Assembly (NCBI GenBank): GCA_027920525.1
Contig: CP115858.1
Span: forward strand, 806,001 to 870,000
Source: Chryseobacterium daecheongense
GTDB lineage: Bacteria; Bacteroidota; Bacteroidia; Flavobacteriales; Weeksellaceae
Length of the DNA stretch: 64,000 nucleotides
Reading direction: 5' to 3'
A program made the translations under genes and the position numbers. Under the pieces are notes generated by a model that ran no database searches, was not told the DNA's origin, and worked only from the letters and a program-made list of their open reading frames with translations. Position 1 is the stretch's first letter; every line of letters begins with the position of its first letter. Shown in pieces: positions 137 through 11,682 of this stretch.

Positions 137-1525
137 ATGAAAATTTTAGAAAATGTAATTGCCAACAGAAGCCTCTCTTTTATAGAGGCTTCCAGTGGCA
201 AAAGTGTTCCGGTAGGAACATTGTACCGGTCATTAGGCCTGAATCCTGTAGAAAAAGGATTGATTTTTTTATACAATGACAATCAGCTGTCCAGTATTGA
301 AGTTTTACTGAACTTCTATGGTACGGCTCATGCCATTGCAATTCTGGGACAAAAGCTTCACCCGGACTTCAAAGAACGCCTGGAAGTAGAATACCGTCCG
401 AAATACATCTTTGATCCGTCACGGGAAGAGCTTCAGGGATATTCATCCAGAGAATTCTCAGAAACCATTAAAATCTTTGTTAAAGAAGATTATAAACCGG
501 AAGTTTCCATTCATCCGGATATTAAGATTCTTTTAAGCACCTCGGGAACAACAGGAGTTCCTAAGCTGGTTAAGCTTTCGGATGAGAGTCTTTATAAAAA
601 TGCGGTGAGTATTCTGCAATATATGCCTATCCTGGAATCGGATGTAGTTCCGTTAAATGTCCCGATTAATTTCGTGTATGGTTTTTCGATTTTCACTACC
701 AACTGTATGCGGGCAGGGAAAATAGTATGCACGGATAAAGATATTATGCAAAAGGCATTCTGGGATGAAATGGAAGAGTACGGATACAGTACACTGGGTG
801 GCGTTCCATACCTTTATGAAAATCTGAACCGAATAGGCTTCTTCAGAAAAGACAGTAAAAGCCTACGATACATGACCCATACAGGAGGGGTGATCAACGG
901 AGAACTTCGAAAAACGATCTTCAATTACTGTCATGAATTTGAAAAACAATTCTTTGCCCAATATGGACAGACAGAAGCCGGAGGAAGAATGGCTTACCTC
1001 AGTACCGATGGACTTCTTGAAGAAGAAACGTCTATTGGTAGCCCGGTACACGGCGCAAGCTTTGAGATCGATCCGGAAACAGATGAACTTCTTTTCTTCC
1101 ATGAAAGTATATGTGGAGGATATGCCAATACACTCCATGATCTTGCGTCTTATGAGCAACCCAAAGTGCTTCGTACAGGAGACACCGCCAGGAGAGGACA
1201 AAATGGACTGTATTATATTACAGGAAGAATAAAACGCATCATGAAGCTATTCGGAATTCGTCTCAACCTGGATGAGGTTGAATTTATTCTTAAAAATGAA
1301 CTGGAGGGAAACACATTTGTATGCCTTAATTCCAATGACAAAAAGATCATTGTATTATATGACAACAATGAAATTGATCCCCAAATTATCACTGAAACCA
1401 TAAAGAATAAATTACGCATCAATCCTCAATATGTACGCACGGAACATATAGAGACATTTCCATTATCCCAAAACGGCAAAATAAATTATCCCCTGTTACA
1501 AAACCTTCAGCATGAAAACATTTAG
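137..1525 (+). CDS. AMP-dependent acyl/aminoacyl synthetase (adenylating enzyme)
   Basis: A 462-residue member of the ANL (acyl-CoA synthetase/NRPS adenylation) superfamily. Visible core motifs in order are STSGTTGVPK (residues 134-143, phosphate loop), YGQTEAGGRM (A5-like), RTGDTARRGQNGLYYITGR (A7/A8 hinge) and a C-terminal SQNGKINY with the catalytic lysine at about 448 (A10). It is shorter than typical stand-alone CoA ligases (500-560 aa), closer to carrier-protein-loading enzymes. It starts 4 bases after the carrier-protein fragment and its 3' end overlaps the TonB receptor gene by 14 bases, so the three are probably one transcript. Substrate is unknown; the receptor and PepSY reductase downstream suggest a siderophore-like product (inference). 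Confidence 0.8.
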   Translation: MKILENVIANRSLSFIEASSGKSVPVGTLYRSLGLNPVEKGLIFLYNDNQLSSIEVLLNFYGTAHAIAILGQKLHPDFKERLEVEYRPKYIFDPSREELQGYSSREFSETIKIFVKEDYKPEVSIHPDIKILLSTSGTTGVPKLVKLSDESLYKNAVSILQYMPILESDVVPLNVPINFVYGFSIFTTNCMRAGKIVCTDKDIMQKAFWDEMEEYGYSTLGGVPYLYENLNRIGFFRKDSKSLRYMTHTGGVINGELRKTIFNYCHEFEKQFFAQYGQTEAGGRMAYLSTDGLLEEETSIGSPVHGASFEIDPETDELLFFHESICGGYANTLHDLASYEQPKVLRTGDTARRGQNGLYYITGRIKRIMKLFGIRLNLDEVEFILKNELEGNTFVCLNSNDKKIIVLYDNNEIDPQIITETIKNKLRINPQYVRTEHIETFPLSQNGKINYPLLQNLQHENI

Positions 1526-3956
1526 AACCCTTATATTACTTTTACTTCTTGTCAGCTTTCCCGTAATTGTCTCTGCACAACAGAGCGAACGTGTCAACGG
1601 CAAGATCATGCTGTCTGATAAAGCACCGGTAAAAAACGCGCTTTTAAGACTAGTAAATACGCCTTATCAGGCAAAAACCAATAATTCAGGAGAATATTAT
1701 TTTGACAACGTGCCGCCTGGGGAGTATACTCTTCAGGTGGTTTTAAATGATATCGAACTCACACGTGAAACCATTCGTATTGAGAAAGATGTCTATGAAA
1801 TCCCGGTTATTTATACCGCGGTGGAGAACAATGTTATTGAAGGAATTACCGTATATGCTGTAAGCAGAAATAAATTTCTCGATAAGGACAGTACTTCAAT
1901 TGCTAAAATGCCGTTGAAAAACCTGGAAAATCCACAGATGTACACCAGCATCAATCAGCAGATCCTTAAAGAACAGCTTGTTTATGATGTTTCAGATGCC
2001 TTGAAAAACGTTCCTGGTGTTGTGAAAATGCAGGGAAGCGCCGGAAGAGCAGGAGACGGAAGTTTCTACTATAATTTAAGAGGTTTTCCAACAAGAGTTT
2101 CGATGGTAGACGGTGTCCCGGCAACCACCAACTCTGAAATTGATCCTTCAGATATTGAACGTATTGATGTAATCAAAGGACCTTCCGGAACATTATATGG
2201 TGGAGCGGTAACATCATTTGGCGGACTGATCAATGTTGTAACCAAAAAACCAAAAGATTATTTCGGGGGAGAAGTTTCCTATTTATTGGGAAGCTATAAC
2301 CTGAATCGTGTTACAGCTGATGTTTATGGTCCGATCACCGATTCCAGAAAAACTTTATTCCGATTAAATGCAGCATATCAGTATCAGAACGGATTCAGAG
2401 ATTCTGAGTTCAGAAAGTCTATGTTTGTGGCTCCTACACTGAGTTACCAGGTTAATGACAGATTAAAGTTCAATCTTGGAGCGCAGATTTATACCTACGA
2501 AGGAACGAATACGCCGATTATTTTCCTTGCCAGAACACGCCCGTTTGAAGCACATACTCCCCAGGAGCTCGGATTTGACTGGAAAAGATCATATTCCAAC
2601 AATGATATGAGTTTAAAAGCTCCGTCTATCAATGTAAAAGCTGAGGTTAATTATAAAATTTCCGACAACTGGAGTTCGCAGACTTTGATTTCGAGAAACT
2701 ACAGAAAAACAGAGGGATTATACCAGTATCAATTTATCCGATCACCTAAAAGAGACGATATGCTGGAACGTAACGTACAATGGCAGAATTCCGAAGGAGC
2801 TTCCACAAGTATCCAGCAGAATTTTAACGGACAATTTAAAATTGGGAAAATTAAAAATAAACTCCTGATCGGATTGGATTATTTAAATCAGTCACTGAAC
2901 AATAATAATTCTCCAATCGTTAAGTATGATACGATCAACGGAAGGGATCTTACGGGTAAATACGGTGCAATATCAAAAGATCTGGCTCTTCAGAAAATAC
3001 AGATTTTCACACAAAATGCTATTACTAAAACAGGAAAATCGCCATTGGAAAGAAATACAATTTCAAGCAATATGTATGGGGCTTATATTTCTGATGCCGT
3101 TTATATTACCGACCGTTTAATTACATTGCTTAGTTTACGTTTTGATCATTATGAAAGTAAAGGTCAACTTGACCTCAATACCAATACGAATACAGGTGCA
3201 TTCAATCAGAATGCCTGGTCACCGAAACTGGGTATTGTTTACCAGGTATTTAAAGATCGCCTGTCTGCATACGCCAACTATATGAATGGTTTTAGCTATG
3301 TAGCTCCGAGCTCTCAGCCGCTTCCAGATTATAGCGGAGATTTTAAACCTCAAAGATCTAATCAATGGGAAGCTGGAATTAAAGGAAATTTGTGGAGAAA
3401 CAAGGTGAATTTTACGATCGGATATTACAATATCCTTGTCGACAATATGCTAAGGGCAGACGTTGTGATTCGAGATGGAAAAGGGTATAATGTAACCATT
3501 CAGGATGGAGAACAAAGAAGTAAAGGAATTGAAATTGAAACCATTTTAAACCCTATCCATGGTTTAAATATTATGGCAGGATATTCATACAATGACAGTA
3601 AATTTGTAAGATCCGCGGCCAATGTGGAAGGCCGCCGTCCTTCATCTTCCGGTCCTGCAAATGTATTCAATTCATGGATCAGTTACATACTCCCAATCAA
3701 CGGACTACAGGGATTAGGTATAGGTTTCGGACTTAATCGTGTAGGTAAACAAATAACAGTGGATAATGCAACTACAGGACAATTTATATTTCCTGCCTAT
3801 ACATTGATCAATGCTTCTGTCTCTCTTGAAAAAGAAAGATACAGACTAGGATTTAAAATGAATAATTTAGGGAATGCCCAATATTTTGCAGGGCAAGGTG
3901 TTGTAGTAGCCCAAATGCCTCGTAATTTTGTAGCTGAGGTTAGCCTTAAGTTTTAA
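1512..3956 (+). CDS. TonB-dependent outer-membrane receptor, siderophore type
   Basis: An 814-residue outer-membrane receptor. It has an N-terminal signal peptide ending near VSAQ (residue 23), a carboxypeptidase-regulatory-like beta domain (about 25-110, with the NNSGEYYFDNVPPGEY signature common in Bacteroidota receptors), a plug (about 135-250, with IERIDVIKGPSGTLYGG and FGGLINVVTKKP) and a 22-strand barrel ending in Phe (AEVSLKF). The plug motif is that of siderophore receptors. The start ATG lies inside the end of the ligase gene (14-base overlap), implying translational coupling, and the PepSY gene follows after 2 bases. The inferred role is uptake of a ferric chelate, perhaps the product of the upstream ligase/carrier genes. 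Confidence 0.88.
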   Translation: MKTFRTLILLLLLVSFPVIVSAQQSERVNGKIMLSDKAPVKNALLRLVNTPYQAKTNNSGEYYFDNVPPGEYTLQVVLNDIELTRETIRIEKDVYEIPVIYTAVENNVIEGITVYAVSRNKFLDKDSTSIAKMPLKNLENPQMYTSINQQILKEQLVYDVSDALKNVPGVVKMQGSAGRAGDGSFYYNLRGFPTRVSMVDGVPATTNSEIDPSDIERIDVIKGPSGTLYGGAVTSFGGLINVVTKKPKDYFGGEVSYLLGSYNLNRVTADVYGPITDSRKTLFRLNAAYQYQNGFRDSEFRKSMFVAPTLSYQVNDRLKFNLGAQIYTYEGTNTPIIFLARTRPFEAHTPQELGFDWKRSYSNNDMSLKAPSINVKAEVNYKISDNWSSQTLISRNYRKTEGLYQYQFIRSPKRDDMLERNVQWQNSEGASTSIQQNFNGQFKIGKIKNKLLIGLDYLNQSLNNNNSPIVKYDTINGRDLTGKYGAISKDLALQKIQIFTQNAITKTGKSPLERNTISSNMYGAYISDAVYITDRLITLLSLRFDHYESKGQLDLNTNTNTGAFNQNAWSPKLGIVYQVFKDRLSAYANYMNGFSYVAPSSQPLPDYSGDFKPQRSNQWEAGIKGNLWRNKVNFTIGYYNILVDNMLRADVVIRDGKGYNVTIQDGEQRSKGIEIETILNPIHGLNIMAGYSYNDSKFVRSAANVEGRRPSSSGPANVFNSWISYILPINGLQGLGIGFGLNRVGKQITVDNATTGQFIFPAYTLINASVSLEKERYRLGFKMNNLGNAQYFAGQGVVVAQMPRNFVAEVSLKF

Positions 3957-3958
3957 TA

Positions 3959-5167
3959 ATGAATTCTAAATTGAGAAAAATCACATATCAATTACATCTA
4001 TGGCTCGGACTAATGTCCGGGCTTATAGTTGTAATAATGGCAGTTACCGGTTGCATCCTGGCATTTGAAAAAGAATTAAAACATACGTTCTATCCTGAAA
4101 AATATTTTGTCAGATCAGTTAAAAATGAAAAGCTCCCATTTTCGGAACTAAAATTGAAAGCTAAACAGGCATTACCTGACAGCTTAAAACTTAGCAGGGT
4201 AGAAATATCTTCCGATCCTTACCGCAGTTATGCATTCCGTTCCCTGAAAATGAATGACGAAGCATGGACATATTGGGGAACTTATATTTATTATTACAGG
4301 GTTTATATAGATCCTTATACCGGAAAAGTTCTTGCAGTTGAGAACGCCAAAACCGACTTTTTTGAAATTGTGATGGATCTCCACAGAAGATTATTGCTTG
4401 GAGAAAAAATAGGAAAGACCATTACGGGATATTCCACACTGATTTTAGCGATCATGCTTTTTTCCGGCTTAGTGATCTGGTATCCCCGTAAAATGAATAA
4501 AAATGCATTGAAAGGCATGTTTTTTATTAAAACATCAGCTAACTGGAAAAGAATTAATTATGACAGTCACAATGTTCTGGGTTTTTATGCTGTGATCCCT
4601 CTGCTTCTGATCTGCTATTCCGCAGTGATATGGAATTTTGAAAATATTGATCAATGGGTAAAGAAAACTTTAAACGGAAAGGCCCACACTGAACAAAAAG
4701 CTAAGAGTACAGTACCCGCCACCGGGTTCTCCAATCAAAAAATGATCCTGGATATCGTAGGGAATAAAGTGGAAAAAAGTCTGGCAGGTAAAAAATCCGC
4801 ATTGATCAGTTTTCCCAAAAAAGAAGAGGGAACGTACTATGCAGAGATAACATATGGTGATAAACAATACCAGAATGAGCAATTCAATTTTGATCAATAT
4901 ACCGGGGAAACTTTAAAACATCAATTGTATAATGACAAAAATATCGGGAACGGAACCGCTCTAAGAGGAAGAAATTACGATCTGCATACAGGAAGTATTC
5001 TGGGTACGGCAGGCAGAATTTTATATCTCATTGCTGGTTTAATTGCGGCATCACTTCCCATTACAGGATTTATGATTTATCTAAACAGGAAAAAAAAGAA
5101 ACCAACAAAAAGGAGTCATGCAAAAATTCATAAGCGAAGACATTCCTTTTTTCAAAATAGCCACTAA
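3959..5167 (+). CDS. PepSY-domain inner-membrane reductase-like protein
   Basis: A 402-residue PepSY-associated transmembrane protein. Membrane segments lie at about 15-37, 157-175, 208-226 and 350-375, with PepSY-type periplasmic domains between. Histidines sit at membrane edges in typical contexts: LHLWLGL (H13), DLHRRLLLG (H142), DSHNVLGFY (H204) and DLHTGSILG (H343). In the related FpvG/FoxB-type proteins such histidines bind heme and the protein reduces ferric siderophores. The C-terminus is a Lys/Arg/His-rich cytosolic tail. It begins 2 bases after the TonB receptor, so a role in iron release from the imported chelate is likely. Reductase activity is inferred from family and context. 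Confidence 0.8.
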   Translation: MNSKLRKITYQLHLWLGLMSGLIVVIMAVTGCILAFEKELKHTFYPEKYFVRSVKNEKLPFSELKLKAKQALPDSLKLSRVEISSDPYRSYAFRSLKMNDEAWTYWGTYIYYYRVYIDPYTGKVLAVENAKTDFFEIVMDLHRRLLLGEKIGKTITGYSTLILAIMLFSGLVIWYPRKMNKNALKGMFFIKTSANWKRINYDSHNVLGFYAVIPLLLICYSAVIWNFENIDQWVKKTLNGKAHTEQKAKSTVPATGFSNQKMILDIVGNKVEKSLAGKKSALISFPKKEEGTYYAEITYGDKQYQNEQFNFDQYTGETLKHQLYNDKNIGNGTALRGRNYDLHTGSILGTAGRILYLIAGLIAASLPITGFMIYLNRKKKKPTKRSHAKIHKRRHSFFQNSH

Positions 5168-5210: not shown

Positions 5211-6701
5211 TTATGAAATCAGTCTCTTTACATTTTCAGATAAAATTCTGATACTTTGTTCCATTTCTTCGAAAGTTAAGTTTCCAAATCCCAGCCTCAT
5301 TGCCGTAAGATTTTTGTTTTGATACAATAATGTTTTAGGAATGAATAGGTTATTTTGAGCGCAATTCCTGCTGAGCTGCATAAGGTTCAGGGGAACATTC
5401 CACTCAATCCAGATCGCTAAGCCACCTGATGGTTTTTGGAACCGTATATATTCCCCAAGATATTCTTCCAGTAAAAGAGCGAACTGGTCCCTTCTTTCCT
5501 GATAAATCTTGACCGATTTCTTAAGATAACGATGAATTTCTCCTTCAGCAATCATTTCACCCAATACCTGCTCCATAAGAATATCACCCTGACGGTCTAT
5601 AATTCCCAAATATTTACGCAATTCAGTCATCAGGTTTTCCGGAGCCACAATAAATCCTGTCCGGAATCCCGGGGCAAGTGATTTTCCGAAAGAACCGGTG
5701 TAAACAACCATTCCGTTTGTATCTGCACTTGCTAAAGGAAGGATAGGACTCTTATCATAATGGAAGTCATAATCGTAATCATCCTCCAGGATCACAAATC
5801 CAAATTCGTTCGCCAGATTCAACAGCTCTAGTCTTCTTTGAGCACTTAACGTTACCGTGGTAGGATAGTGGTGGTGAGGAGTGAGATATAACATCCGTAT
5901 CTTTTGCTTTTTACAGGCCTCCCTTACATATTCCACCATAATTCCTTCTTCATCGATAGGAACAGGAACAATATGAACCCTGGCTTTCTCCAGTATCATA
6001 TTAACCGAAAAATAGCTCAGTGCGCCTACCAATACAGTGTCGCCTTCTGATAAAAGTACTTCCGAGACAATATAGATGCTCATTTCCGTACTTCTTGTAA
6101 TAAGCAGATTTTTTTTGGAAATAGGAAGCCCTCTTGATAGATTCAGGTAATGAGAAAGGTTCTTTTTAAAGAATTCACTTCCGTCATGATTATAATGGCC
6201 AAGCATTTTATGATGTGCTTTACGCTTGAGAATAGCACTGTAAATCTTGGAATGCTGGTCAATCTGTGTTATCCTGATATCCGGTACCCCATCATTCAAC
6301 AGATATTCACATGCAGAATGCTCAAATGGGTTATCGAGGATATTGGACGTTTTAAAAGAAAAGCCTGTTGTTTTCGGATAATGTTCAAGGTCATTGGTTT
6401 CAAAATTTTTAACCTTTGTAGGCTCATCCTTATTTTTCCCGATAACAAATGTCCCCTTATTCGGGATGCTGTCCACCCAGCCCTGAGCAAACAGCTCATC
6501 ATATACGGCAACAATCGTATTACGGTGCACTTCAAGGGTTTGACTTAAAGCCCTGGTTCCCGGAAGTTTGGTCCCAAAAGGTAGGTAACCACGCTGAATC
6601 GCATTGATCAGCTGATTGGCAATCTGCATATATATTGAAGCGTCTGAACTTCTGTTAATTTTGACAAAACTCTGATAAGGAATTTCAACCGGACTATCCA
6701 T
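5211..6701 (-). CDS. MocR-type transcriptional regulator (GntR HTH fused to aminotransferase-like domain)
   Basis: A 496-residue fusion. Residues 10-80 form a GntR winged helix (YMQIANQLINAIQRGYLPFG...LPGTRALSQ...HRNTIVAVYDEL). The rest is a fold-type I PLP domain with EDDYDYDFHY and the PLP lysine in SFGKSLAPGFR. I chose ATG at 6701; an in-frame TTG at 6725 would add 8 unconserved-looking residues. MocR proteins bind PLP or an amino compound and usually control the divergent gene, which here starts at 6767, only 65 bp away, and is the first gene of a biotin operon. BioF and BioA in that operon are themselves PLP enzymes. Control of biotin synthesis is therefore a reasonable inference, but other MocR targets (vitamin B6, GABA, taurine) are known. 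Confidence 0.85.
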   Translation of the reverse strand: MDSPVEIPYQSFVKINRSSDASIYMQIANQLINAIQRGYLPFGTKLPGTRALSQTLEVHRNTIVAVYDELFAQGWVDSIPNKGTFVIGKNKDEPTKVKNFETNDLEHYPKTTGFSFKTSNILDNPFEHSACEYLLNDGVPDIRITQIDQHSKIYSAILKRKAHHKMLGHYNHDGSEFFKKNLSHYLNLSRGLPISKKNLLITRSTEMSIYIVSEVLLSEGDTVLVGALSYFSVNMILEKARVHIVPVPIDEEGIMVEYVREACKKQKIRMLYLTPHHHYPTTVTLSAQRRLELLNLANEFGFVILEDDYDYDFHYDKSPILPLASADTNGMVVYTGSFGKSLAPGFRTGFIVAPENLMTELRKYLGIIDRQGDILMEQVLGEMIAEGEIHRYLKKSVKIYQERRDQFALLLEEYLGEYIRFQKPSGGLAIWIEWNVPLNLMQLSRNCAQNNLFIPKTLLYQNKNLTAMRLGFGNLTFEEMEQSIRILSENVKRLIS

Positions 6702-6741
6702 AATATTAAAACTGGCACCATTCAACCATCCGGCAATATAC

Positions 6742-6749
6742 TACATTTG
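6742..6749 (+). promoter_or_regulatory. Candidate -7 box of the biotin operon
   Basis: TACATTTG matches the Bacteroidota sigma-70 -7 consensus TAnnTTTG exactly and ends 17 bases before the ATG at 6767. I see no good TTG -33 element at the usual spacing, so this promoter may need an activator, for which the divergent MocR protein is the candidate. Confidence 0.45.
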
Positions 6750-6766
6750 AATCAAAATAAAAATAC

Positions 6767-7384
6767 ATGGAATTTTACAATCTATTAGAACGTATTGTAA
6801 AAAATAATGAGGTTCATGCCAAATGGCTGAATACATTATCTTTTATGGAGAATGCAGGAGCCAGAAAAATTTCCAGCTGTGAGCATCCTACCCAGGTGAG
6901 CCAGATCCAGCTAAAACATGCAGCAGAAGAACACCGCCATGCCTACTATCTGAAAAAGCAGATCGGAAAGCTTAATCCCGACTTTTGTAAAACCTATGAA
7001 AAAGAAGAGCTTCTGGCTTCATTGGCAACCCGTCAATATCTGCACTCTTTGGATATTAAAGCGTGTAAATATTTACAAAAAGCATTTTCCTTAACCAAAG
7101 AAGAGCTAAAATATGCGGCTTACCTTTTTGTAACCTATGCCATTGAAGTACGTGCCGATGAGCTATATCCCGTATATCAGGATATCCTGACTAAAGAATC
7201 TTCTAAAATTATGGTAAAGTCAATCATTCTTGAAGAAGAAGGACACTTAGAGGAAATGATCAATCAACTGAATGAGTTTTCACCAGACTGGCAGCTTCAT
7301 GCAGAAGAGATTCTTAAAATTGAACATCAGTTACATGAACAATGGATCAGTTCCATTACAAAAGAAGTAATAGAGCTGAATTAA
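6767..7384 (+). CDS. Ferritin-like diiron-type protein at the head of the biotin operon
   Basis: A 205-residue, all-helical protein with two ExxH motifs in the right order for a diiron carboxylate site: E55-H-R-H58 in HAAEEHRHAYY and E157-E-G-H160 in ILEEEGHLEEM. Further glutamates in the first helix (about E28) and third helix (E127 or E132, in AIEVRADELYPVY) are placed to complete it. No signal peptide or membrane segment. The bioF start codon lies 2 bases after its stop, so the two are co-translated. No known biotin enzyme (BioC, BioH, BioG, BioI, BioW, BioZ) has this fold, and no pimelate-forming gene is present in this operon. A role as an oxygenase in pimeloyl supply, analogous in chemistry to the P450 BioI, is hypothesis only. 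Iron storage or an unrelated oxidase role remains possible. Confidence 0.65.
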   Translation: MEFYNLLERIVKNNEVHAKWLNTLSFMENAGARKISSCEHPTQVSQIQLKHAAEEHRHAYYLKKQIGKLNPDFCKTYEKEELLASLATRQYLHSLDIKACKYLQKAFSLTKEELKYAAYLFVTYAIEVRADELYPVYQDILTKESSKIMVKSIILEEEGHLEEMINQLNEFSPDWQLHAEEILKIEHQLHEQWISSITKEVIELN

Positions 7385-7386
7385 AA

Positions 7387-8499
7387 ATGGGAGGCGGTCA
7401 ATTAGCTCATTTCCAGCAGGCATTGGATAAAAGAAGAGAGCAGGGAATCTTCAGGTCTCTCCGGCCTAAGCTTGAAGGAACAGATTTTTATTCTAATGAT
7501 TATCTGGGTCTGGCACAAAATAAAGCATTTCAGCATTATTTGCTCGGGCAGGTTCAGAATAATCCTGCATTATTAGCAGGCAGCACAGGATCAAGACTAA
7601 TCAGTGGTAATAGTACAGTAGCCGTTCACACGGAGGAATTTATTGCCCACCAACATCAATACGATTCAGCATTGCTTTTTTCTTCCGGATACAATGCCAA
7701 TCTGGCTTTGTTCTCAGCCCTGCCAGGAAGACAGGATAGTATTATTGTAGACGAACACATCCACAGATCGGTACACGATGCCTGCTGCATCACCCATGCA
7801 AAAAAGATCAAGTTTAAACATAATGACCTTATCAGCTTAGAAGAAAAATTAAGCAAAATTCAGGGAAACTGTTATATTGGCATTGAAAGCCTGTATTCGA
7901 TGGAAGGTGATTTTGCTCCTATCCAAAAAATCGTTGAGCTGGCAGAACAATACAATGCCCATCTCATCGTGGATGAAGCTCATTGTTTTGGTGTTTTAGG
8001 ATATGGATTAGTTAATGAAAATCAATTACAGGACAGGGTTTTGGCTACTGTGATAACCTATGGTAAAGCTTTAGGAGCACATGGAGCAGCTATTTTAAGC
8101 AGTCGGCTGATCAAAGACTACCTCATTAATTTTGCGTCTCCTTTTATTTATACCACATCAGCACAGGATGTCCAATGGAACTCTGTAAAAGCCGGATATG
8201 ATTTCCTGAAAATCCATCCTGAATTAGCATTAGAACTACAGCACAATATCACCCTTTTTAGAAAACAAGGACTTCAAAGCCCTTCATCAGAAAGCAGCCC
8301 GGTACAGGCTATTGTTATTCCTGATAACCACCAATTACAATTGCTGCAAAAAACATTATCGGAAAAGGGAATGCTCACCTATGCAGTCTACAGTCCAACC
8401 GTGAAAGAAGGAACAGAAAGATTGAGGGTCTGTCTGCACAATTTTAATACCGAAGAAGATATTATTGAGCTTGCCACAACAATCAGAGAAATTATGTGA
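7387..8499 (+). CDS. bioF: 8-amino-7-oxononanoate synthase
   Basis: A 370-residue PLP enzyme of the alpha-oxoamine synthase family, condensing pimeloyl-ACP (or -CoA) with L-alanine. Typical features are the N-terminal FQQALDKRREQGIFRS, FYSNDYLGLAQN, the glycine-rich LLAGSTGSRLISGNS, VDEAHCFGVLG, and the PLP lysine in ITYGKALGAHGA. The ATG at 7387, two bases after the preceding stop, gives the standard BioF N-terminus; an earlier in-frame ATG at 7342 lies within the ferritin-like gene. Family members are about 385 residues, so this one is a little short but complete. BioF versus the similar KBL is decided by the biotin context. Confidence 0.9.
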   Translation: MGGGQLAHFQQALDKRREQGIFRSLRPKLEGTDFYSNDYLGLAQNKAFQHYLLGQVQNNPALLAGSTGSRLISGNSTVAVHTEEFIAHQHQYDSALLFSSGYNANLALFSALPGRQDSIIVDEHIHRSVHDACCITHAKKIKFKHNDLISLEEKLSKIQGNCYIGIESLYSMEGDFAPIQKIVELAEQYNAHLIVDEAHCFGVLGYGLVNENQLQDRVLATVITYGKALGAHGAAILSSRLIKDYLINFASPFIYTTSAQDVQWNSVKAGYDFLKIHPELALELQHNITLFRKQGLQSPSSESSPVQAIVIPDNHQLQLLQKTLSEKGMLTYAVYSPTVKEGTERLRVCLHNFNTEEDIIELATTIREIM

Positions 8500-8650: not shown

Positions 8651-9268
8651 ATGAAATTATTTGTCACCGGAATAGGAACCGAAATAGGAAAAACAGTTTG
8701 TTCAGCAATTTTAACCAACCATTTTAAAGCAGATTACTGGAAACCCGTTCAATCCGGAGATCTGCATTATACGGACAGTATGAAAATTAATAATTGGGTG
8801 GGACATGAGGTCTGTTGTTATCCCGAAACCTACCGTTTACACCTCGCGGCTTCTCCTCATCAATCTGCAGCAGCAGAAGGAAAACAAATCAGTGTTGACG
8901 ATTTTCAGTTACCGGATACATCAAACACCCTGGTCGTAGAGGGAGCCGGAGGATTAATGGTACCACTTTCGGATCATGAATTTATGATTGACCTGATAGA
9001 AAAACTGCAGTTACCTGTTGCCCTGGTAGTCAGAAATTATTTAGGATGTATCAATCACACTTTGTTATCCATAATGGCTTTAAGAGAAAGAGGGTTTTCA
9101 TTAAAATACCTGATCCTTAACGGATCTTTTCCCACCGATACAGAACGGGTGATCATCAACTATATAGAAAAAGAAACCCATATCATCAGAATACCTGAGA
9201 TAGATTCAATTACAAAAGAAAACATAGAAACAATATCAAACAATTTAAAACACGTATACAATGGATAA
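8651..9268 (+). CDS. bioD: Dethiobiotin synthetase
   Basis: A 205-residue ATP-dependent enzyme closing the ureido ring of biotin from 7,8-diaminononanoate and CO2. Shows the BioD P-loop GTEIGKT at residues 9-15 (family GTDTxVGKT), WKPVQSGD carrying the lysine that binds substrate, and VEGAGGLMVPL. There is a 151-base gap after bioF, with no obvious terminator, and its end overlaps bioB by 8 bases. The acidic residue in the P-loop (T-E instead of T-D) is a conservative change. Confidence 0.9.
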   Translation: MKLFVTGIGTEIGKTVCSAILTNHFKADYWKPVQSGDLHYTDSMKINNWVGHEVCCYPETYRLHLAASPHQSAAAEGKQISVDDFQLPDTSNTLVVEGAGGLMVPLSDHEFMIDLIEKLQLPVALVVRNYLGCINHTLLSIMALRERGFSLKYLILNGSFPTDTERVIINYIEKETHIIRIPEIDSITKENIETISNNLKHVYNG

Positions 9269-10259
9269 AACAACAAAACTTAGAAATGACTGGACGAAAG
9301 AGCAGATAGAGGAAATATTTAACCTGCCTCTATTAGAACTTGTATACAAAGCTGCGACCGTTCACCGGGAATGGCATAACCCTGAAGAAGTACAGATCTC
9401 AACGTTATTATCAATAAAAACAGGAGGTTGCGTGGAAGACTGTTCCTATTGCGGACAAGCTGCACGCTATCATACGAATATCAAAGTACAGGCCTTACTT
9501 CCTACAGAAAAAGTAATTGAACATGCTCAAAAAGCCAAAGATTCTGGATCTTCAAGGTTCTGTATGGCTGCTGCGTGGCGTGAAGTACGCAACAACAAGG
9601 ATTTTGATCGCGTAATCGATATGGTGAAAGGAGTAAACGAGCTCGGATTAGAAGTTTGCTGCACATTGGGAATGCTGACAGAAGAGCAGGCAATACGTTT
9701 ACAGGAAGCAGGGCTATATGCTTATAACCACAATCTGGATACCTCTGAACAGTATTATGAAGAAATTATTTCAACGCGTACATTCGATAACAGGATCAAT
9801 ACCATTAATAACGTTAGAAAAGCAGGAATTACTGTATGCTCCGGAGGGATTATCGGTCTTGGGGAAACCAATGGGGATCGTATTTCCATGCTGCTGACAT
9901 TAGCTACAATGCCTAAACACCCGGAATCCGTTCCGATCAATGCCTTAGCCAGAGTAGCCGGAACCCCTCTTGAAAACAATCCCAAAGTAGATACCTGGGA
10001 AATGGTGAGAATGATCGCTACCGCAAGAATTGTAATGCCATCATCAATGGTTCGTTTGAGCGCGGGACGCATCGAGATGACCGAAACCGAACAGGCATGG
10101 TGCTTTATGGCAGGAGCTAATTCCATTTTTACCGGAGAAAGGGAAACTCTTTTAGTAACGCCAAACCCAGGAGTTTCGGAAGATATGCAAATGCTCAATA
10201 CCCTCGGATTGAAACCGATGAAAAAAAGAGAAGAAGCCTTTGTGAATAGTGAAAGTTAG
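9261..10259 (+). CDS. bioB: Biotin synthase (radical SAM)
   Basis: A 332-residue radical-SAM enzyme inserting sulfur into dethiobiotin. The [4Fe-4S] CxxxCxxC motif is GGCVEDCSYCGQ (C57, C61, C64); YNHNLDTS and GETNGDR and the RLSAGR strand (arginine and neighbouring residues that ligate the auxiliary [2Fe-2S] cluster) are present. The gene starts 8 bases before the bioD stop, indicating translational coupling. Its TAG stop lies inside the first copy of a heptamer repeat described separately. Confidence 0.95.
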   Translation: MDKTTKLRNDWTKEQIEEIFNLPLLELVYKAATVHREWHNPEEVQISTLLSIKTGGCVEDCSYCGQAARYHTNIKVQALLPTEKVIEHAQKAKDSGSSRFCMAAAWREVRNNKDFDRVIDMVKGVNELGLEVCCTLGMLTEEQAIRLQEAGLYAYNHNLDTSEQYYEEIISTRTFDNRINTINNVRKAGITVCSGGIIGLGETNGDRISMLLTLATMPKHPESVPINALARVAGTPLENNPKVDTWEMVRMIATARIVMPSSMVRLSAGRIEMTETEQAWCFMAGANSIFTGERETLLVTPNPGVSEDMQMLNTLGLKPMKKREEAFVNSES

Positions 10260-10398: not shown

Positions 10399-11682
10399 AT
10401 GCCGAACGAATTACAAAAAAGAGACCGGGCCGTGAACTGGCACCCGTATACTCAGATGAAAACAGCTGACGATGCAATTCCTATCGTCAAAGGAAAAGGA
10501 GTATATCTCTACGACAATGAAGGTAAAAAATATATCGATGCTGTTTCATCATGGTGGGTTACTTTGCACGGACATGCTAATGAGCATATTGCCGAACGTG
10601 TTTACAGTCAGCTGAATACATTAGAGCAAGTTATTTTTGCCGGATTTACCCACGAACCGGCGATACAGCTTTCTGAAAACCTCCTGAAGCTATTACCGGA
10701 TAATCAGGAGAAGGTTTTTTATTCAGATAACGGATCAACTGCGGTAGAAGTTGCTTTAAAAATGAGCATTCAGCATGCTTACAATCAGGGAAAATCAAAA
10801 ACAAAGATACTTGCTTTCAAAGATGCTTATCATGGAGATACCTTTGGTGCAATGTCAGTGAGCGGAAGAAGCATCTGGACCCAGCCTTTTGGCGAAATGC
10901 TGTTTGAAGTGATCTTCATAGATACTCCGAATTCTGAAAATCTGGAAGAATTAAAAATCCGGATTGAAGATTTTGCCGATGATGTGGCCTGTTTTATTTA
11001 CGAACCATTGATACAGGGAGCTGCCGGAATGCTGGTACACCATGCTGAAGATCTTAGTAAGCTTATGAAGTTCTGCAGGGAAAAAGAAATCATTCTGGTC
11101 CAGGATGAAGTTTTTACAGGATTCGGAAGAACGGGAAAACTTTTTGCATCGAATCACCTGTCCGAACAACCTGATATCATGTGTTTTTCAAAAGGATTAA
11201 CAGGCGGAACAATGCCAATGGGTATTACAACCTGCTCAGAAGTGATTTTCAATGCTTTCTTATCCGATGATAAATATAAAACTTTATTCCATGGTCATTC
11301 CTTTACAGCAAATCCTTTAGCCTGTGCTGCGGCACTTGCCAGTATGGAGCTTTTATTACAGCAAGATACACAACTTGCCATTGAAAGAATCTCCCAACAA
11401 CATGCTGATTTTACAAAAATCCTTCAGCAGCATAAGAAAGTGGAAAATGTCCGCCAAATGGGAACCATTCTGGCTTGGGAGCTCAAAACGGATCAGGGAA
11501 CTTCGTATTTTAATGAAACCGGAAAAAAGATCTACAATGAATTTCTGTCCAGAGGAATTATCATGCGCCCGCTGGGAAATGTGATGTATCTGGTTCCTCC
11601 TTATTGCATTACCTCAGGAGAGCTTGATTTCATTTATGAAAATATCATAGACGTTCTTAACCTATTTCTGAAAATGAAATAG
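10399..11682 (+). CDS. bioA: Adenosylmethionine--8-amino-7-oxononanoate transaminase
   Basis: A 427-residue fold-type I aminotransferase (class III) that uses SAM as amino donor to make 7,8-diaminononanoate. The N-terminal NWHPYTQMKT is the BioA signature; SSWWVTLHGHAN, the PLP-facing AYHGDTFGAMS, LVQDEVFTGFGRTG and PLP lysine in CFSKGLTGGTMP follow. It lies 139 bases after bioB, beyond the heptamer repeats, so it may be read through from the operon or have its own start site. No bioC, bioG or bioH is seen before or after it. Confidence 0.93.
   Translation: MPNELQKRDRAVNWHPYTQMKTADDAIPIVKGKGVYLYDNEGKKYIDAVSSWWVTLHGHANEHIAERVYSQLNTLEQVIFAGFTHEPAIQLSENLLKLLPDNQEKVFYSDNGSTAVEVALKMSIQHAYNQGKSKTKILAFKDAYHGDTFGAMSVSGRSIWTQPFGEMLFEVIFIDTPNSENLEELKIRIEDFADDVACFIYEPLIQGAAGMLVHHAEDLSKLMKFCREKEIILVQDEVFTGFGRTGKLFASNHLSEQPDIMCFSKGLTGGTMPMGITTCSEVIFNAFLSDDKYKTLFHGHSFTANPLACAAALASMELLLQQDTQLAIERISQQHADFTKILQQHKKVENVRQMGTILAWELKTDQGTSYFNETGKKIYNEFLSRGIIMRPLGNVMYLVPPYCITSGELDFIYENIIDVLNLFLKMK

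Follow-up and report, generated by a model that had tools for sequence, protein, structure and literature searches.

A predicted ferritin-like diiron protein at the head of a Chryseobacterium biotin operon is very probably the pimeloyl-supplying oxygenase BioE

BioE and its counterpart in Chryseobacterium daecheongense

BioE is a ferritin-like diiron oxygenase, published in 2025 from Elizabethkingia and Chryseobacterium, that cleaves long-chain acyl-ACP or acyl-CoA at the C7-C8 bond to give a pimeloyl thioester (PMC12915131; other literature used: PMC13336041, PMC7645780 and PMC9909488). The Elizabethkingia meningoseptica enzyme, EmBioE (PNAS 2025 122(49) 2501226122, as summarised in PMC12915131), and the Chlamydia psittaci enzyme, CpBioE, carry out O2-dependent cleavage of long-chain acyl thioesters and replace BioC-BioH in Escherichia coli, and deletion of bioE in a relative leads to biotin auxotrophy; for relatives of the protein studied here, iron content, ligand mutants, cleavage products and complementation are in print (PMC12915131). 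The iron ligands of EmBioE are E26, E53, H56, E125, E155 and H158 (PMC12915131, section 2.3), and the reaction is presented as desaturation, hydroxylation and oxidative cleavage leading to the pimeloyl thioester, a series that the authors themselves call hypothetical. CpBioE, whose published identity to EmBioE is about 40%, is not accompanied by bioL and acts on acyl-ACP only (PMC12915131). Other routes reach the same intermediate by different means. For example, BioI of Bacillus subtilis is a heme P450 with a fold unrelated to that of BioE, whereas the BioC-BioH/BioG route, which like BioE feeds a pimeloyl thioester to BioF, relies on methylation and fatty-acid elongation and, unlike BioE, involves no oxygenase.

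The window analyzed here is a stretch of 64,000 nucleotides of the C. daecheongense genome, and it carries at 6767..7384 (+ strand) a gene with an ATG start encoding a protein of 205 amino acids, hereafter X. An initial annotation made from the DNA alone had pointed to two ExxH motifs in X, both of which are present in the translated open reading frame (E55-H58 and E157-H160), and had proposed as its leading idea that X is a diiron oxygenase cleaving a fatty acyl-ACP in the manner of the P450 BioI. Comparison with the published enzymes agrees with this idea, as do the tests of sequence, iron ligands, neighboring genes and co-occurrence. Against an E. meningoseptica homologue, X shows 67% identity across 198 of its 205 residues, EmBioE itself being known here by its published residues rather than by accession; with this homologue, X falls within the authors' own search rule for BioE (EmBioE matched at >40% identity with 85% coverage; PMC12915131). 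X is two residues longer at the N terminus than the homologue and shorter at the C terminus. When the published EmBioE residues, ligands included, were placed on X, 16 of 17 matched at an offset of +2, whereas eight other offsets gave at most 2 of 17. The sole miss among the acyl- and CoA-site residues is K46, which is Q48 in X and likewise Q in the two E. meningoseptica homologues compared, so that the published K46 may be a numbering slip and the residue meant (PMC12915131, section 2.4) may be K48. The published residues of CpBioE matched X at 17 of 23 positions at an offset of -13, with all 6 of 6 ligands among them, as against at most 4 matches at six other offsets. All six published iron ligands are therefore kept in X, as E28, E55, H58, E127, E157 and H160.

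None of these six residues varies across a 20-row alignment in which X stands with 19 sequences hand-picked from the matches, at 59-84% identity to X. A protein identical to X is encoded in Chryseobacterium sp. LAM-KRS1. General family models leave X unnamed: Pfam gave a rubrerythrin match only, below threshold (19.9 vs 22.8 bits) and shared at E<=0.1 by 5 of the 20 homologues, NCBIfam gave no match, and single-sequence and profile look-ups found no solved structure related to X by sequence. Taken with the published work, these comparisons strongly suggest, with little room for doubt, that X is BioE, the diiron oxygenase supplying the pimeloyl thioester, the function of this particular copy being assigned by orthology. 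The initial annotation's statement that ferritin-like folds do not occur among pimeloyl-supplying enzymes no longer holds since the publication of BioE in 2025. The BioE system is already in print, and the finding on X is itself not new; a reading of the sequence alone had nevertheless pointed to the published route.

The four genes downstream of X, all on the + strand, follow the order bioF-bioD-bioB-bioA given in the initial annotation, and NCBIfam models name each of them: bioF (7387..8499; 8-amino-7-oxononanoate synthase, with TIGR00858 as best match, whose strict cut-off of 426.45 bits is not reached by the score of 285.9), bioD (8651..9268; dethiobiotin synthase, TIGR00347), bioB (9261..10259; biotin synthase, TIGR00433) and bioA (10399..11682; adenosylmethionine-8-amino-7-oxononanoate transaminase, TIGR00508), the last three above cut-off. 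The tight coupling of X to bioF was also described correctly, the TAA stop of X (7382-7384) being separated by 2 bases from the bioF ATG at 7387. This start is likely rather than proven because bioF could also begin farther upstream, at the in-frame ATG at 7342, which would lengthen it and make it overlap X. Further along, bioD runs 8 bases into bioB, and gaps of 151 and 139 bases separate bioF from bioD and bioB from bioA, respectively. Beyond bioL, a gene on the other side of X that is described below, lie a gene for a TonB-dependent siderophore receptor and an adjoining 402-amino acid gene next to bioL (1512-5167, + strand); the latter has no NCBIfam match and looks by eye like a PepSY-type membrane protein, and 43 of the 85 loci contain both genes as well.

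By analogy with the published enzymes, a long-chain acyl-ACP or acyl-CoA would be bound by X, its acyl tail lying within the hydrophobic channel of a predicted ferritin-like helical protein, and the two-iron site formed by E28, E55, H58, E127, E157 and H160 would activate O2 with electrons from a donor. X would then oxidize the chain and cut its C7-C8 bond, handing the resulting pimeloyl thioester to BioF, after which BioA, BioD and BioB would complete biotin. At the CoA-contact positions, X shares R33, R89, Q90 and H93 with EmBioE, the Chlamydia enzyme having different residues at this part of the CoA site; F26 and K34 are common to all three proteins. The four residues shared with EmBioE suggest that X may accept acyl-CoA as well as acyl-ACP, which would fit the report that EmBioF uses only pimeloyl-CoA in vivo (PMC12915131).

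A probable BioL gene and its candidate operator

Upstream of bioE and divergent from it lies a gene on which the initial annotation was silent, the probable bioL (5211..6701, - strand), located 65 bases from bioE. The listed open reading frame opens at a TTG at 6725, and the start is taken here as the ATG at 6701. The product combines a GntR domain with an aminotransferase-like domain, as in MocR-type regulators (Pfam, NCBIfam), and in NCBIfam it scores highest against the MocR-type PdxR, narrowly missing the cut-off of 320 with 319.9 bits. In E. meningoseptica, the repressor BioL binds the bioE promoter in EMSA and senses 8-amino-7-oxononanoate (PMC12915131), and bioL and biotin genes are also neighbors in Elizabethkingia-like loci. 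Two residues published for EmBioL, the DNA contact R50 and the PLP residue K340, both align with the window's protein when it is read from ATG 6701, and none of the other offsets between -12 and +29 places both. The divergent gene is therefore likely to be an orthologue of bioL, an assignment based on family membership and these two residues.

Between bioL and bioE, positions 6712..6736 hold an imperfect inverted repeat, CTGGCACC-N9-TCCGGCAA, which is a likely, predicted BioL site and from which BioL would repress the operon. The repeat is clearer in Elizabethkingia-like loci, where it reads CTGGTACC-N6-GGTCCGG. Of 84 loci, 72 have an element of the form CTGG(C/T)ACC...TCCGGCAA in the interval that separates bioL from bioE, and it is absent from this interval in the other 12, including that of Chryseobacterium indologenes AA5 (L073); because the pattern was derived from the same loci, this count is a description and not an independent test. 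The pattern occurs once in the window, between the two genes, and its occurrences elsewhere in the 84 other loci are 6 inside the bioL match, which are probably the same site, 1 between bioB and bioA and 1 inside bioF. The operator element in the window is followed at 6742..6749 (+ strand) by a TAnnTTTG-like box. We take TAnnTTTG to be the -7 promoter consensus of Bacteroidota, and the box is accordingly a likely, predicted promoter of bioE.

Distribution of bioE and of other pimeloyl sources

The initial annotation had described the operon as lacking a pimelate-forming gene. This held in that no other such gene was detected among those searched for, and failed in that X is very probably that gene itself. 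The search of the 4.86-Mb genome covered BioW, P450, BioG and BioC. BioW and P450, the family of BioI, gave 0 matches each, the best BioG match scored 15.1 bits (cut-off 27) and the best BioC match 82.3 bits (cut-off 184.95), so that X adjoins biotin genes in a genome without BioC, BioG, BioW or BioI above their cut-offs. A divergent BioC below the cut-off is possible, the 17 matches to the generic methyltransferase model PF13489 in this genome being uninformative on BioC. The BioG model exceeded its cut-off in 0 of 14 control genomes and in 63 of 296 survey genomes, the latter showing that this search works.

The gene order was checked across 80 named genomes. An alignment of 11 rows was used to scan species-representative genomes; the 311 stretches that matched included 291 relatives, of which the best 80 were kept (by title, 78 Chryseobacterium, 1 Soonwooa and 1 Paenimyroides); in these best 80 of 291, bioL, bioE and bioF lie together in 80 of 80 loci. 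Because the ligands are invariant in 20/20 rows and this arrangement recurs in 80/80 named loci, the motif pattern and gene order of X reflect more than chance. With five further loci added to the best 80, bioE adjoins bioF in 84 of 85 and bioL is present in 83 of 85. One exception, L112, has a truncated bioE without any other bio gene in 13 kb, and L113 has no bioL in the stretch examined. The L112 copy (L028 / L112:6444-6812, + strand) is a remnant with about 80 residues matched, from a genome of the window's family that is 83% complete, and apparently represents decay of the BioE route. Within the window's family, X was matched in 12 of 80 genomes, counting its own genome and the truncated remnant.

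A wider survey covered 296 Bacteroidota genomes that were at least 90% complete, with limits of E<=1e-10 for BioE, E<=1e-50 for bioB, E<=1e-5 for BioG and E<=1e-30 for BioC. At these limits, BioE was found in 11 genomes, bioB in 151, BioG in 63 and BioC in 97 (61 of these over the model cut-off). The initial annotation had suggested looking for co-occurrence of X with bioF in genomes lacking other pimeloyl genes. In the survey, all 11 BioE genomes carry bioB, 0 of 11 carry BioG (E<=1e-5) or BioC (E<=1e-30), and each of the 11 has a bio gene next to bioE, eight times with bioL, bioF and bioD, twice at bioA and once at bioF on the opposite strand. These searches thus gave neither a BioC or BioG elsewhere in the same genomes nor an X commonly found outside biotin loci. 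For comparison, bioB is present in 63 of 63 BioG genomes and 88 of 97 BioC genomes. Among bioB carriers, the chance that BioE would coincide with neither BioC nor BioG comes to 4e-5, a naive value, as the genomes are related and the counts are not independent. In the genus g58, represented by three survey genomes (L130, L132 and L133), bioE has bioA or bioF as its neighbor and bioB lies at another place in the genome, and bioL was not found in the stretch examined. One survey match (G352) reads with one TAA inside, probably the natural stop at the protein end.

BioB is an oxygen-sensitive iron-sulfur enzyme, and its gene lies in the same operon as X. It could therefore be proposed that X is a rubrerythrin-like iron store or peroxide scavenger that protects or supplies BioB, along the lines of an alternative raised in the initial annotation (protection or supply of an oxygen- or iron-dependent step near BioB), and the weak Pfam match of X, shared by a quarter-fraction of its homologues as given above (5/20), points the same way. 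The neighbor that X keeps in 84 of 85 loci is bioF, however, and in the three survey genomes of g58 X stays at bioA or bioF while bioB is elsewhere. Protection of BioB would also not predict that X and BioC (E<=1e-30) never occur together in 296 genomes, and the published BioE proteins stand in for BioC-BioH in E. coli (PMC12915131). We regard such a role as very improbable and reject a rubrerythrin or iron-storage function on the strength of gene order, co-occurrence and published complementation; the alternative of the initial annotation finds no support here.

X might instead be an acyl oxygenase, whether aldehyde-deformylating or of another kind, that was recruited to the biotin genes, with pimelate coming from an unseen BioC-BioH pair. 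The authors do liken the BioE site to the diiron-carboxylate site of the cyanobacterial aldehyde-deformylating oxygenase (PMC12915131), and the genome holds weak BioC-like methyltransferases, the best being that at 82.3 bits. Unlike BioE, the cyanobacterial enzyme acts on an aldehyde with loss of one carbon. X retains the six ligands together with most of the published acyl-pocket residues, which argues against a recruited oxygenase of another kind, as does the auxotrophy of the bioE deletion in a relative (PMC12915131), and an unseen BioC is at odds with the 0 of 11 BioE genomes with BioC at E<=1e-30. This explanation appears even more remote than protection of BioB, and the identification of X as BioE is the one retained here.

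Biotin operons with a FabF-like ketosynthase

The survey also bears on biotin synthesis beyond the BioE genomes. The sister family f2, of the same order (presumably Flavobacteriaceae), includes bioB genomes without BioE, BioG or BioC, and one of these encodes, between bioA and bioB, a FabF-like beta-ketoacyl synthase of 385 amino acids (L127:7077-8234, + strand; outside the window). With a limit of E<=1e-55, chosen by us to separate this protein from housekeeping FabF, it was found in 22 of 296 genomes, comprising 19 of the 23 bioB-bearing f2 genomes and three in other families, whose matches are weaker or partial. All 22 genomes carry bioB, and in 21 of the 22 loci (L136-L157) a bio gene lies within about 1.5 kb, the exception being L150, for which a shorter stretch was available. 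At the limits used, the ketosynthase never occurs together with BioE, BioG or BioC in the 296 genomes. The 151 bioB genomes form groups that do not overlap: BioC at E<=1e-30 is present in 88 (63 also with BioG), BioE in 11, the FabF-like ketosynthase in 22 and none of these in 30.

In the FabF-like protein, a Cys-His-His triad seems, on our reading, to be conserved. The ketosynthase already known from biotin synthesis, BioZ, is a FabH-type enzyme with Cys-His-Asn, and no account of the FabF-like gene was found in the open-licence literature searched. The FabF-like ketosynthase is an obvious candidate in sister-family genomes that have bioB but lack BioE, BioG and a strong BioC. BioE may thus be one of at least three mutually exclusive routes in Bacteroidota, with the FabF-like ketosynthase as perhaps an undescribed pimeloyl-supplying enzyme, a tentative proposal to which we give slightly under an even chance.
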